Below, in pieces: positions 45,102 through 51,299 of a stretch of 64,000 nucleotides of DNA. Each line of letters begins with the position of its first letter. Within the stretch, counting starts at the first letter, position 1. The notes beneath the pieces were generated by a model, which saw only the letters and a list, made by a program, of their open reading frames with translations, ran no database searches and was not told the origin of the DNA. Both the position numbers and the translations under genes were made by a program. The DNA comes from Ferruginibacter lapsinanis (lineage in GTDB: Bacteria > Bacteroidota > Bacteroidia > Chitinophagales > Chitinophagaceae). The stretch is from assembly GCF_020783315.1 (NCBI RefSeq), contig NZ_CP086063.1, positions 2,282,501 to 2,346,500 of the forward strand, read 5' to 3'.

Positions 45102-45191
45102 TTAAGCCCTCATATCAATAGTAACATTCGGTTTATTAGGCATGGCTACAATAGTACTAGTTTCAACTGTTTTATACTGTGGAGTTTTCAT
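45102..45191 (-). CDS. Possible 29-codon small ORF at the end of the TPP-riboswitch operon
   Basis: ATG at 45191-45189, TAA at 45104-45102. The start overlaps the last codons of the Trm112-like gene in another frame (…ACTGATGAAAACT…), the arrangement expected for translational coupling. The predicted peptide begins MKTPQYKTVETS and ends NVTIDMRA, is Thr- and Lys-rich, has no Cys and no signal peptide. Evidence is positional only; short frames occur by chance. Confidence 0.3.
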   Translation of the reverse strand: MKTPQYKTVETSTIVAMPNKPNVTIDMRA

Positions 45192-45456
45192 CAGTTATCA
45201 AACGGAAATTTTCAAACGTTTTATTTTTTAATAGAGGTTTCCAGCTTTCAATTAAAGGCTGTTCCAATTTAAATTCACGGTATTCATCAGGACTCATAAT
45301 AGGAATTCCTTTTACGATAGGGTATATGCGGTCACATTCTTTACAGGTGAAAAAACCTTCCATTACATTTTTGTGTATGTCTTGAGAGATGATAGTTAGC
45401 TCTATATCGGCTTTATCAAAAGGGCAACATAATTTTTTTATCGTTTCAATATTCAT
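45172..45456 (-). CDS. Trm112-like zinc-ribbon protein
   Basis: A 94-residue protein. IKKLCCPFDKADIEL and FTCKECDRIYPIVKGIPIMSPDEYRE give the Trm112/UPF0434 pattern with cysteines at 10, 11, 38 and 41. In eukaryotes and archaea Trm112 stabilises and activates several SAM methyltransferases; bacterial members are less studied. Here it is the last certain gene of an operon whose first gene is a methyltransferase, so a complex between the two is a reasonable inference. It follows the ThiE-like gene after 6 bp. Confidence 0.85.
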   Translation of the reverse strand: MNIETIKKLCCPFDKADIELTIISQDIHKNVMEGFFTCKECDRIYPIVKGIPIMSPDEYREFKLEQPLIESWKPLLKNKTFENFRLITDENSTV

Positions 45457-45462
45457 TTTATT

Positions 45463-46095
45463 TTATTTTAAAAGTTCTGTATATTTTTTTATTGTTTCTT
45501 TCGGTGTTGCTGAATTCATAATTCCGGAGATCACAGCAATGCCATTAAATGGTAAGTCTTTCAGTTTTGGCATATTTTCCAAGGTAATTCCTCCTGCTAA
45601 AAAAACAGGAATTGCAGTTATCTCTTTGCATTTGGCAATGTTCTCAAATGTCACTAATTCGCAACTATTGCTGGTTGATGAAGGAAAAACAGAGCAGAAA
45701 GAAATATAGTCTATATGGTTTTGGTTTGCCCAATGCACTAAGCTTAAATCATTATTGCAGGTTATCCCACAAATAAAATGCCTTTTGACCGATTGTCTGA
45801 TTTGGTCGATATTGTCAGGGGGCTTGTCGAAATGCACGCCATCCAATTCGGTCGATCGCAGCCATTTCCAGTTATTGTTGATCAACACAGGTATATTTTT
45901 TTTATGGCATATTGTTGTTATTGTTTTGATAAATTCTTCAATGTGCTGGTCTGCTAAAAAGTTATCCCAAATTTGAACAGCTGCGATCGGTTCTTCTGCG
46001 ATCAATTTTAGTTTATTCAATAATATGGCCTCGTCTATTGAAGGGTCTATTACCAAATAAATTCCTGCATGTATTTTTCTTTTATTTATTTCCAT
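45463..46095 (-). CDS. ThiE/TenI-like TIM-barrel protein with altered active site
   Basis: A 210-residue TMP-synthase/TenI-fold protein, IHAGIYLVIDPSIDEAILL at the start. The fold landmarks are present: VLINNNWKWL (strand with the usual INDR), ELDGVHFD (DGVHLG position) and VFLAGGITLENM (GGI phosphate loop), ISGIM. But the residues used by ThiE to bind the pyrimidine diphosphate (QxRxK on strand 2, then INDR and the TxTK loop) read QIWDN, INNN and SVFPSSTSN. The enzyme may be a thiazole-handling TenI relative or have a new reaction. The start overlaps the stop of the AIR-synthase-like gene. Confidence 0.82.
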   Translation of the reverse strand: MEINKRKIHAGIYLVIDPSIDEAILLNKLKLIAEEPIAAVQIWDNFLADQHIEEFIKTITTICHKKNIPVLINNNWKWLRSTELDGVHFDKPPDNIDQIRQSVKRHFICGITCNNDLSLVHWANQNHIDYISFCSVFPSSTSNSCELVTFENIAKCKEITAIPVFLAGGITLENMPKLKDLPFNGIAVISGIMNSATPKETIKKYTELLK

Positions 46096-47141
46096 CCTTT
46101 ATTGCATGCGTTAACGAAAGCCGACCAATAAGGGTCGTCTTCCAGGTAAATCAATGCTTTTTCTTCATTGTTTTCTATCAATTGTATGCCATGTTTTTTT
46201 TCTTTGATCTCACCAACAAAAGAGCAAAGGATATTTTCTGCTTTCAATCGATCAATTACAAGGGATACACTTTCTTGTTTACAAGTTATGATCATTGCTC
46301 CTGCACCTACACAGTAATGAGGATCAATAGAAAATAAGTTGCATACTGCTTTCTGTACTTCTCCGGTTGGGATAGTATCTTTGAAAATAACAGCTCCATT
46401 CCCTGATGCAGAAGCTAATTCATAGATAGCTCCTAGTATTCCCCCTTCAGTCACATCATGCATCGCTGTTATGTCTTCATGTCTATTTAAGATGCCTACT
46501 GCTGTTAAAGCATCTTTGAGTGAAGATGTTTCATAAAATAAATCGCAGGCTTTTTGATAGACTTCGTTTCCGAGATTATTTTTAACAGTTTCAGGGAAAC
46601 TCAAGGAAAGTATTGAAGTAGCAGTAAGTGCAGATTGTTTAGTAACTAAAATGGCATCGCCTGGTTTAGCTTGTTGTGAAGTAAGTACCTGCGATTTTGG
46701 AGCAACTGTGAAAAAAGTGCCTCCACCTGCAATAGTGGAATTTTGTCCTTCAATAAAACCTGTATGCCCACCTGTAATAGCAACTTTAATTGCTGCACAA
46801 AAACTATGAATATAATTCCAGTAGGTACTGAAATCTTCTTTTGAAAAAGTTGCAGGAAGGTTTAACACAAATTGTCCATACATGGGTGCAAATCCTGTGG
46901 TAGCCATGTCATTAGCCATCAGGTGTACCGACAACCATGCAGATTCCTGTAAGCCTAATGATGGAATAAGAGAGAGGGGATCGCTTGTGCTTGCCAGGAC
47001 CATACCATCGGGAAGATCTATAACAGATACATCTACGCCGAATTGCGGCCCAACACTAACCTCATTTCTTTTGTAGCCACACTTTTTTTGCACAATGTTT
47101 TTAAAGTCGGTATTGCTTATTTTTCCCAGTTTGCCTTTCAT
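46086..47141 (-). CDS. AIR synthase (PurM/HypE/ThiL superfamily) related protein
   Basis: A 351-residue ATP-dependent superfamily member. VGPQFGVDVSVIDLPDG is the N-terminal substrate/metal motif, SDPLSLIPSLGLQESAWLSVHLMANDMATTGFAP corresponds to the nucleotide-binding Asp-rich region, and GGHTGFIEGQNSTIAGGG and AMHDVTEGGILGAIYELA follow in the second half. There is no C-terminal Cys motif of HypE, and the thiamine-control context makes a ThiL-like kinase or novel ATP-using step plausible. The ATG at 47141 directly follows the methyltransferase stop; in-frame ATGs at 47156 and 47153 are also possible. It overlaps the next gene by 10 bp. Confidence 0.85.
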   Translation of the reverse strand: MKGKLGKISNTDFKNIVQKKCGYKRNEVSVGPQFGVDVSVIDLPDGMVLASTSDPLSLIPSLGLQESAWLSVHLMANDMATTGFAPMYGQFVLNLPATFSKEDFSTYWNYIHSFCAAIKVAITGGHTGFIEGQNSTIAGGGTFFTVAPKSQVLTSQQAKPGDAILVTKQSALTATSILSLSFPETVKNNLGNEVYQKACDLFYETSSLKDALTAVGILNRHEDITAMHDVTEGGILGAIYELASASGNGAVIFKDTIPTGEVQKAVCNLFSIDPHYCVGAGAMIITCKQESVSLVIDRLKAENILCSFVGEIKEKKHGIQLIENNEEKALIYLEDDPYWSAFVNACNKGWK

Positions 47142-47142
47142 A

Positions 47143-47865
47143 TCATTTAACATCATTTAACTTGATATACAAACCGAAAAAATCTCCATAAGGCAATCCC
47201 CATTGTTGAACAGGAAACCATTTTGGCAATCCTGTACAAGTCCACTCAATAGTGTAATCTCTTCCTTTTAAGGCTTCATCAATTATTGCTGTAAGTTTTT
47301 TTGGGGTATAAAATGTAGCGGTAACATAAAATGGATTTTTCCCAAACAGTTGCTGAACTCGCCTGCGTAATACCTTTGGAGAATTCCTGTTCATCATTCC
47401 CATTGCCACTCCATATTTTGCCACTCTTGTTGCTTCCCGTATCACTTTTACCGGATCTTTATAGTATTCAAAAGTGGTAATAAAAGCCAAGGCGTCAAAA
47501 GTATGATCTTTAAACGGCATATGATGAGAGTCTGCCATCACGAGGTCGCCATCAAATAAATGAATTGCCTGTGAAAGCATAAGCGGGGAAATATCTCCGC
47601 CGGTAGCTTTGATGCCTATCTCTTTCCACCATCTTGTAAAACGAGTAGTGCCACAACCAAATTCAAGTAATGTTTTAATTCGCTTGTCTTTTGATACCAA
47701 CTGTTCCATTACTTTTTTTTGCCAGATCTCCGCACGTTTGTATCTTCCTTCATACCATTGCTCATAGGTGTCGGTGTGCTCACGGTTAAAGAACCATTCT
47801 GGTCTTTCTTGCCAGTTTTGTTGTGTTTTGGGGATTAATTCAAAAACTTTTTTTTGTACTTCCAT
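47143..47865 (-). CDS. Class I SAM-dependent methyltransferase in TPP-riboswitch operon
   Basis: A 240-residue Rossmann-fold methyltransferase. Motif I is LLEFGCGTTRFTRWW (about residues 64-78), motif II GGDISPLMLSQA, then DLVMADSHHMPFKDHTFDALAFITTFEYY (motifs III/IV of the UbiE/Methyltransf_11 type). The start is ATG 47865 (MEVQKKVFELI). It is the first gene after the riboswitch, about 70 nt from the aptamer. Its substrate is unknown; the context points to thiamine or a thiamine precursor or derivative. Confidence 0.87.
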   Translation of the reverse strand: MEVQKKVFELIPKTQQNWQERPEWFFNREHTDTYEQWYEGRYKRAEIWQKKVMEQLVSKDKRIKTLLEFGCGTTRFTRWWKEIGIKATGGDISPLMLSQAIHLFDGDLVMADSHHMPFKDHTFDALAFITTFEYYKDPVKVIREATRVAKYGVAMGMMNRNSPKVLRRRVQQLFGKNPFYVTATFYTPKKLTAIIDEALKGRDYTIEWTCTGLPKWFPVQQWGLPYGDFFGLYIKLNDVK

Positions 47866-47936
47866 GGTGTTATTTTTTTTACAAAAAATACACGGAGAGA
47901 AATGGAAAGTCAAAAAAGAATGGAGTGTTGAAGTAC

Positions 47937-48015
47937 TGCATCCCTACGTTGGCATTATCCAAATCAGGTTTCGGGTATTATCTCAGCCAGCACTTGTTTT
48001 CTGGCACCCCGTGCA
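47937..48015 (-). promoter_or_regulatory. TPP riboswitch (THI element)
   Basis: On the minus strand, in order: GGGGTGCC, GGCTGAGATAATACCC, AACCTGATTTGGATAATGCC and AACGTAGGGA. These are the hallmark conserved segments of the TPP aptamer (pyrimidine-binding helix arm with CTGAGA, diphosphate-binding arm with ACCTGAT and GGATAATGCCA). TGCA at both ends closes P1. I see no terminator between aptamer and start codon, so control is probably at translation or by a structure that I cannot resolve. Confidence 0.96.
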
Positions 48016-48025
48016 TTTAATTTTT

Positions 48026-48033
48026 CAAAGTTA
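48026..48033 (-). promoter_or_regulatory. Putative -7 element of the TPP-riboswitch operon
   Basis: CAAAGTTA on the plus strand is TAACTTTG on the minus strand (TAnnTTTG), 11 bp before the first aptamer base, so transcription would start almost at P1. Confidence 0.6.
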
Positions 48034-50738: not shown

Positions 50739-51299
50739 CTAAATATTTTGAATAGTAATTCTTCTTTTTTCCTTTAATGCTTTAAAATGTGTGGGGGTTA
50801 ATCCTGTCGCTTTTTTAAATTGTGTAGACAGATGCCCAACACTACTATAATGCAGCATATCTGCAATTTCAGAAAAAGAGTGTTCTTTGAATATGATCAA
50901 TTCCTTTATTCGTTCAATTTTTAAAGAAATAATATACTGCTCTATCGTAGTAGCTTCAACTTCTGAAAAGAAATTGGCTAAATAAGTATAACTATGCCCT
51001 AATTTTTCACTTAATAAAACAGAGAACTTGATATTGGGTTTCTCATCAGAATTGTAGACGTAGTCTATCATAACCTTTCTTACCTTCTCTATTAATACAC
51101 CCTGTTTTTTTTCTAATAATTCTAGCCCAACTTTTTTGATCCTGTTGTTCAGTTTCCTTTTTTTGTCATCAGAAATAGGCTCTTTGGTTTCTATTTCCCC
51201 TAGTTCTACTTTTATTGGCGAAATATTAAGTTCTTCCAGAGCTTCTTTAACAACCATTTTGCAGCTTTCGCAAGCCATATTTCTTACATAGATTTTCAT
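50739..51299 (-). CDS. AraC-family regulator with N-terminal HMA-like Cys motif
   Basis: A 186-residue protein fusing an HMA-type domain (MKIYVRNMACESCKMVVKEALEEL, about 1-75, with the metal-binding MxCxxC motif) to an AraC helix-turn-helix (about 85-180; HSFSEIADMLHYSSVGHLSTQFKKATGLTPTHFK). This suggests a transcription factor that senses copper or another soft metal directly. No metal-efflux gene is adjacent, so its targets lie elsewhere. An imperfect 21-bp hairpin lies just before the start (51315..51360). Confidence 0.88.
   Translation of the reverse strand: MKIYVRNMACESCKMVVKEALEELNISPIKVELGEIETKEPISDDKKRKLNNRIKKVGLELLEKKQGVLIEKVRKVMIDYVYNSDEKPNIKFSVLLSEKLGHSYTYLANFFSEVEATTIEQYIISLKIERIKELIIFKEHSFSEIADMLHYSSVGHLSTQFKKATGLTPTHFKALKEKRRITIQNI

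Follow-up and report, generated by a model that had tools for sequence, protein, structure and literature searches.

A TPP-riboswitch-linked, mobile four-gene cassette of Bacteroidota with a probable, undescribed role in salvaging, converting or dispensing with vitamin B1

What does a cell control with thiamine pyrophosphate (TPP) when the genes behind the riboswitch do not form a standard thiamine operon? This question is raised by a locus in the 64,000-nucleotide stretch of DNA analysed here (hereafter the window; G000:C1:2282501-2346500 of the complete 3.46-Mb genome of Ferruginibacter lapsinanis). Downstream of a TPP aptamer lie four genes on the minus strand, which encode, in this order, a methyltransferase, an AIRS-like protein, a TMP-TENI (ThiE/TenI-fold) protein and a Trm112-like protein. 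An earlier note, made from the letters of the window, had taken the unit for a non-standard thiamine operon under TPP control and for a candidate undescribed system. Both views are supported: the unit is conserved, with the aptamer upstream in 62 of 66 loci, and the literature searched, in which coverage of subscription papers was thin, gave no description of such an operon. As its proteins look like B1 enzymes without having their known chemistry, we conclude that the cassette probably serves B1 salvage, B1 conversion or life without the vitamin in a manner not described before.

A conserved cassette behind a TPP aptamer

The TPP link of the cassette is well supported. The Rfam covariance model RF00059 matches the window at 48021-47924 (minus strand) over its full length (1-105), with 69.4 bits against a gathering cut-off of 54.3 (E 1.5e-11). 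The aptamer that the earlier note had placed at 47937-48015 lies inside this match, and the -7 element it had seen just upstream is a Bacteroidota-type promoter box, TAACTTTG, at 48033-48026 (minus strand). The leader between the aptamer and the first start codon (47866-47923, minus strand) is the presumed expression platform. The cassette loci were scanned with a covariance model built from twelve cassette aptamers and the aptamer of a TonB-receptor gene. In 62 of the 66 distinct loci, across classes, this revealed a TPP aptamer immediately ahead of the methyltransferase gene. Of 62 distinct cassette loci, 39 have a TAnnTTTG box no more than 36 nucleotides ahead of the aptamer, as against 3% of shuffles, and in most of those loci its distance to the aptamer is near-fixed. 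The four loci at which no aptamer was found directly upstream are those of three genomes of one genus (g94) and one that is truncated within the methyltransferase gene by the start of its contig; two cassette-free members of genus g94 in the sample are also without any TPP site. The conservation of the aptamer suggests that the cassette responds to TPP, presumably by repression.

The four genes are separated by a 1-nucleotide gap, a 10-nucleotide overlap and a 6-nucleotide gap, in keeping with the overlapping or closely spaced genes of the earlier note, and this tight spacing indicates that they are packed as an operon. All four products exceed their Pfam gathering cut-offs, and no ThiC, ThiD, ThiG or thiamine pyrophosphokinase (TPK) is encoded in the operon or its flanks.

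The neighbourhood is not unique to the genome of the window; searched for in Bacteroidota together with its aptamer, as the earlier note had proposed, it was found at 66 distinct loci. All of them were fetched via the AIRS-like protein, a procedure by which variants lacking that protein would be missed. Within the order of the window's genome, the AIRS-like protein occurs in 15 of 398 genomes (9 genera, the window's genome counted in), and those of the other 14 genomes are 48-67% identical to the window's copy; of the genomes searched, 12 others belong to the same genus as the window's genome, and none of these has the cassette. When each species was represented by a single genome, a scan gave 53 loci, including two repeats from the first search, in Flavobacteriia, Cytophagia, Sphingobacteriia, Chitinophagia, Saprospiria, Bacteroidales and one Balneolaceae bin. 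Apart from this bin, which belongs to Balneolota, the distinct loci are from Bacteroidota. The complete set of four genes, in one order and on one strand, is present in 64 of the 66, and the remaining two (L072 and L080) are truncated at the ends of their contigs. This recurrence of the four-gene arrangement is far beyond chance.

Flanking gene families are common only to members of one genus, and no flanking gene that would hint at function is conserved beyond the genus. In a tree of the four concatenated proteins (a quick tree, with Shimodaira-Hasegawa-like approximate likelihood ratio support only), classes are interleaved on well-supported branches, and the window's copy groups with those of Cytophagia and Bacteroidales. 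Since the flanks are not conserved and the tree contradicts taxonomy, the unit moves as a cassette; it has been transferred repeatedly between classes, which is typical of an optional nutritional trait, and most of its carriers apparently cannot make vitamin B1. Because the four genes are always together and in order while their flanks change, they probably act together, and the four proteins presumably belong to one pathway. Spread by phage or plasmid was considered and rejected, since searches of viral contigs (AIRS profile) and of phage records (methyltransferase) gave no relative and plasmids hold distant relatives only. Two cassette copies per genome were seen in Arenibacter sp. F26102 (L043 and L050, about 32 kb apart on one contig) and in A. 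arenosicollis (L038 and L049). Chryseobacterium, Pedobacter, Arenibacter and Gramella/Christiangramia are among the cultured genera that carry the cassette. As it is small, stereotyped and found in cultured genera, it is directly testable.

The four proteins

The first gene (47143-47865, minus strand) encodes a class I S-adenosylmethionine (SAM)-dependent methyltransferase of 240 amino acids (Methyltransf_11, 63.2 bits, cut-off 21.2). It is the most conserved cassette protein: across 68 sequences, 121 positions are at least 95% identical, and the SAM-binding glycine motif EFGCGT and D91 are invariant. Its profile finds, among other methyltransferases, the solved Trm112 partners 6f5z_A (archaeal) and 6g4w_q (human BUD23). 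Its AlphaFold model had a mean predicted local distance difference test (pLDDT) score of 62 and was not used, and the gene neighbourhood of a haloarchaeal relative was uninformative. The last gene (45172-45456, minus strand) encodes a Trm112-type zinc-ribbon protein of 94 amino acids (Trm112p, 27.7 bits, cut-off 22), a probable methyltransferase partner, in which zinc ligands of the CxxC type are present and C10, C11, D14, C38 and C41 are invariant. It scores below the NCBIfam archaeal cut-off, and its profile aligns with archaeal Trm112 chains from end to end. Because the methyltransferase profile finds Trm112 partners and the fourth protein matches archaeal Trm112, we reasonably infer that the two pair up as one enzyme. 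As in the Trm112-methyltransferase holoenzymes of archaea and eukaryotes, a Trm112 zinc ribbon stands alongside a class I methyltransferase that is linked by its profile to known Trm112 partners. Unlike them, the putative pair is bacterial, TPP-controlled and accompanied by ThiE-fold and AIRS-like proteins. Characterised Trm112 partners mostly target rRNA, tRNA or release factors, and to our knowledge the cassette would hold the first thiamine-linked Trm112 methyltransferase.

The third gene (45463-46095, minus strand) encodes a ThiE/TenI-fold protein of 210 amino acids (TMP-TENI, 112.5 bits), which scores 105.8 bits with the ThiE model TIGR00693, below the equivalog cut-off of 145.1. Its fold model (pLDDT 93.5) has 2tps as its best match and is closest to ThiE and TenI of B. 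subtilis, the similarity to TenI being fold likeness to 3qh2 only. We compared 67 cassette sequences, which include two repeats, with residue numbering checked on the alignment. The equivalents of R59, K61, D93, D112 and K159 are lost in all 67, whereas Q57, N92 (64/67), T156 (as Ser), G188 and S209 (65/67) are kept. We take the former to be the site of ThiE for metal and for the pyrophosphate of hydroxymethylpyrimidine pyrophosphate (HMP-PP), and the latter to be the thiazole-phosphate and pyrimidine contacts, with Q57 and N92 on the pyrimidine side. On this assignment, the protein has lost the HMP-PP pyrophosphate/metal site and retains the contacts to the thiazole-phosphate and pyrimidine halves, so that the ThiE scaffold may still hold a ligand like thiamine monophosphate (TMP). 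It shares the TIM-barrel fold and these contacts with ThiE and TenI. It differs in the five lost residues and in four conserved ones not found in ThiE: Trp43, Cys134 and Cys145, without exception, and Asp90, in 66/67 sequences. A working ThiE is thus disfavoured, and the proposal that the cassette replaces TMP synthase becomes unlikely as far as ThiE chemistry is concerned. A second ThiE-like protein was noticed next to an old-yellow-enzyme-like gene in two Arenibacter genomes (L125:7795-8475 and L126:7797-8438), with altered catalytic residues seen in L125.

The second gene (46086-47141, minus strand) encodes an AIRS-superfamily protein of 351 amino acids that is related to HypE, ThiL and SelD and is probably ATP-dependent (AIRS_C and AIRS above cut-off). 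Its scores with HypE (71.5 bits, equivalog cut-off 251.6), ThiL (TIGR01379, 65.9 bits, cut-off 184.15) and a SelD model (56 bits) are about equal and each far below the cut-off; for the selD equivalog, 51.3 bits stand against a cut-off of 125. Like these relatives it has both AIRS domains; in a profile alignment to ThiL it keeps several acidic positions, and GGHT replaces ThiL's GGDT. It also differs from ThiL in that a canonical ThiL is encoded elsewhere in every carrier searched. A second TMP kinase was therefore rejected: the ThiL equivalog score is not reached and canonical ThiL is present in 43/43 cassette genomes, which speaks against the earlier suggestion that the cassette replaces the TMP kinase step. 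Relatives of the AIRS-like protein with 28-29% identity were observed on Haloarcula plasmids (L127:5547-7008 and L132:5545-7008), divergent beside genes for a thiamine-binding protein and a thiamine ABC substrate-binding protein.

Thiamine genes and TPP sites around the cassette

The genome of the window has a canonical ThiL (315 bits), and no other TMP-TENI protein over the cut-off and no ThiC were found in it. Its canonical thiE is thus absent, as the earlier note had envisaged, but the absence of thiL that it had coupled with this does not hold. A search at E 1e-8 that covered ThiC, ThiG, ThiE, ThiD and TPK gave no match to any of them; the best match to the Pfam ThiD family is partial (34.7 bits). 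YjbQ is a listed alternative to ThiE (PMC5613172).

A similar picture was obtained for the 43 cassette genomes: ThiL is present in 43/43, ThiC in 3/43, ThiG in 2/43 and a Pfam-detectable TPK in 5/43, and the cassette protein is the only TMP-TENI match in 35/43. Ferruginibacter paludis and Mangrovivirga have the cassette and a full canonical operon. We also sampled 80 cassette-free Chitinophagales by BLAST and found ThiL in 79 (one fragmentary), ThiC in 12, ThiE in 11-12 and TPK in 1-2. Since these relatives show the same gap in ThiC, ThiE and TPK, the gap alone does not point to the cassette, and the argument that the cassette fills a TMP gap of its own carriers was rejected. The lack of a known TMP source is thus a general feature of the order, a gap that the cassette does not fill everywhere.

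One possible source of TMP from imported thiamine in ThiL-only Chitinophagales is an unrecognised thiamine kinase. Candidates for it were seen in Roseivirga, where an AAA_28 (NadR-like, by Pfam) kinase gene ends just upstream of a TPP-controlled TonB receptor (L195:2-457), and in Agaribacillus, where a similar-looking open reading frame was noticed by eye at the same position (L196:1-405). Divergent TPK-like proteins with a MSSHHIVR/K/V... start, which the Pfam TPK model misses, are encoded at L195:4527-5174, L196:4511-5137 and L124:7253-7855, near TPP-controlled TonB receptors or beside a degenerate-looking ThiE homologue.

The only other TPP site in the window's genome precedes a lone TonB receptor. 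Uptake through this receptor and the cassette together are the whole recognisable TPP regulon of this genome. A TonB-receptor-like gene follows nearly all other TPP sites inspected, both in cassette-bearing and in cassette-free genomes, and the receptor of one member of the same genus is 56% identical to that of the window's genome. As TonB uptake is common to genomes with and without the cassette, the cassette is an add-on to a shared uptake system.

The closest thiamine operons described in Bacteroidota are thiSEGCHF-tenI, OMthi and pnuT-tnr3 (PMC5613172). The cassette shares with these TPP-riboswitch operons the aptamer leader and a ThiE/TenI-fold product, and the TonB receptor of this genome matches the OMthi type. 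However, none of the three has a methyltransferase, an AIRS-like or a Trm112-like gene, and the cassette is without ThiC, ThiD, ThiG, ThiH, ThiF, PnuT and TPK. In the main text of a survey of cis-regulatory RNA regulons, Bacteroidaceae are the sole Bacteroidetes group covered (PMC3766115).

What the cassette may do

The substrate and the reaction of the cassette enzymes are read here from sequence, and the mechanism is accordingly worded as a proposal. When TPP is scarce, the riboswitch would permit expression of the four-gene mRNA. The methyltransferase and the Trm112-like protein would form one enzyme, as in archaea and eukaryotes, and this enzyme and the AIRS/ThiL-like enzyme would modify an imported or damaged thiamine compound with the use of SAM and ATP. 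The compound may be a thiamine precursor, damaged thiamine or a methylated thiamine derivative, as the earlier note had suggested. The ThiE/TenI-fold protein would hold the thiazole-phosphate half of a TMP-like molecule and carry out a step other than pyrophosphate displacement, possibly via the conserved Cys134, Cys145 and Asp90. The product would join the pool as TMP, which the housekeeping ThiL, present in the carriers, would convert to TPP.

We give about even chances to the cassette being an optional, mobile, TPP-repressed thiamine-vitamer module, mostly of thiamine auxotrophs, whose enzymes would act on a vitamer resembling TMP or thiazole phosphate and whose output would reach ThiL. This reading is favoured because of the aptamer, the ThiL-positive and synthesis-poor genomes, the mobility and the possible TMP-like ligand on the ThiE scaffold. 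The TonB receptor as the rest of the regulon also speaks for it, as do the matches of the methyltransferase and the Trm112-like protein, each to one subunit of solved Trm112 complexes. Several observations weigh against it. ThiC occurs in three carriers, two of which also have ThiG, so that the cassette is not strictly an auxotroph trait. Cassette-free relatives share the missing TMP source, so that thiamine use does not depend on the cassette. The AIRS relatives adjoin thiamine-binding genes in two Haloarcula plasmids, yet not in Halobacterium or Haloferax. Finally, we know of no thiamine salvage step with a SAM methyltransferase. A bolder version, which we regard as doubtful, is a new way of arriving at thiamine phosphate. 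Here the Trm112-type methyltransferase, together with the ATP-dependent enzyme of AIRS type, would rebuild or assemble a vitamer on a repurposed ThiE scaffold, as a mobile B1 supply for auxotrophs that is overlooked by current annotation.

Calls of B1 auxotrophs and prototrophs rest on thiC, thiG, thiE and thiL (e.g. PMC11346370). Thiamine exchange shapes microbial communities. If genomes in which thiC, thiG and thiE are mostly missing hold a mobile module under TPP control, the auxotroph calls would change or new vitamer chemistry would come to light.

Of the other explanations, the one that survives best, although we consider it unlikely, is that the cassette spares TPP: it would replace or support a TPP-dependent reaction, or adapt the cell to TPP shortage, and not supply thiamine. 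Cobalamin riboswitches can control B12-independent isoenzymes, which is an analogous case. TPP control fits this explanation equally well, no thiamine precursor enzyme stands alongside the cassette in the window's genome, and cassette-free relatives manage their thiamine supply without it. However, none of the four proteins resembles a TPP-dependent enzyme, two of them have family members that act on thiamine phosphates (in ThiE/TenI and in the ThiL superfamily), and the ThiE-fold protein has kept its thiazole-phosphate and pyrimidine contacts.

We also think it improbable that the cassette forms TMP by non-ThiE chemistry, with different donors of the pyrimidine or the thiazole, and so makes auxotrophs prototrophic or able to use a common precursor. 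The 35/43 genomes whose only TMP-TENI protein is that of the cassette, together with ThiL in all, are consistent with such a route, and a self-contained, repeatedly transferred unit pays most if it restores synthesis. On the other hand, the ThiE pyrophosphate/metal residues are lost, 40/43 carriers have no ThiC and 41/43 no ThiG, and the TMP gap is equally present without the cassette. For de novo synthesis, a set of four proteins with no redox, radical or sulfur-donor enzyme among them also seems too small.

Methylation of RNA or protein by the methyltransferase-Trm112 pair, with a TPP link that is regulatory only, is less probable still. The usual targets of Trm112 partners and the profile matches to human BUD23 (6g4w_q) and archaeal 6f5z_A are in its favour, and a macromolecular target would agree with how highly the methyltransferase is conserved, but the constant linkage to ThiE/TenI-fold and AIRS-like proteins, whose relatives act on small molecules, and the TPP control argue against it. 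A divergent but functional canonical thiE and thiL operon with passenger genes agrees with the TPP control and with the fold and Pfam assignments to TMP-TENI and AIRS, but it is very improbable, since both equivalog cut-offs are missed, five catalytic residues are lost in every sequence, each carrier searched has a separate canonical ThiL, the constant co-occurrence of the four genes means that none is a passenger, and the window's genome has no ThiC, ThiD or ThiG to make the substrates.

Elsewhere in the window, an AraC-type regulator was noticed at 50739-51299 (minus strand), the N-terminal half of which resembles, by eye, a heavy-metal-associated domain (MACESCK motif).

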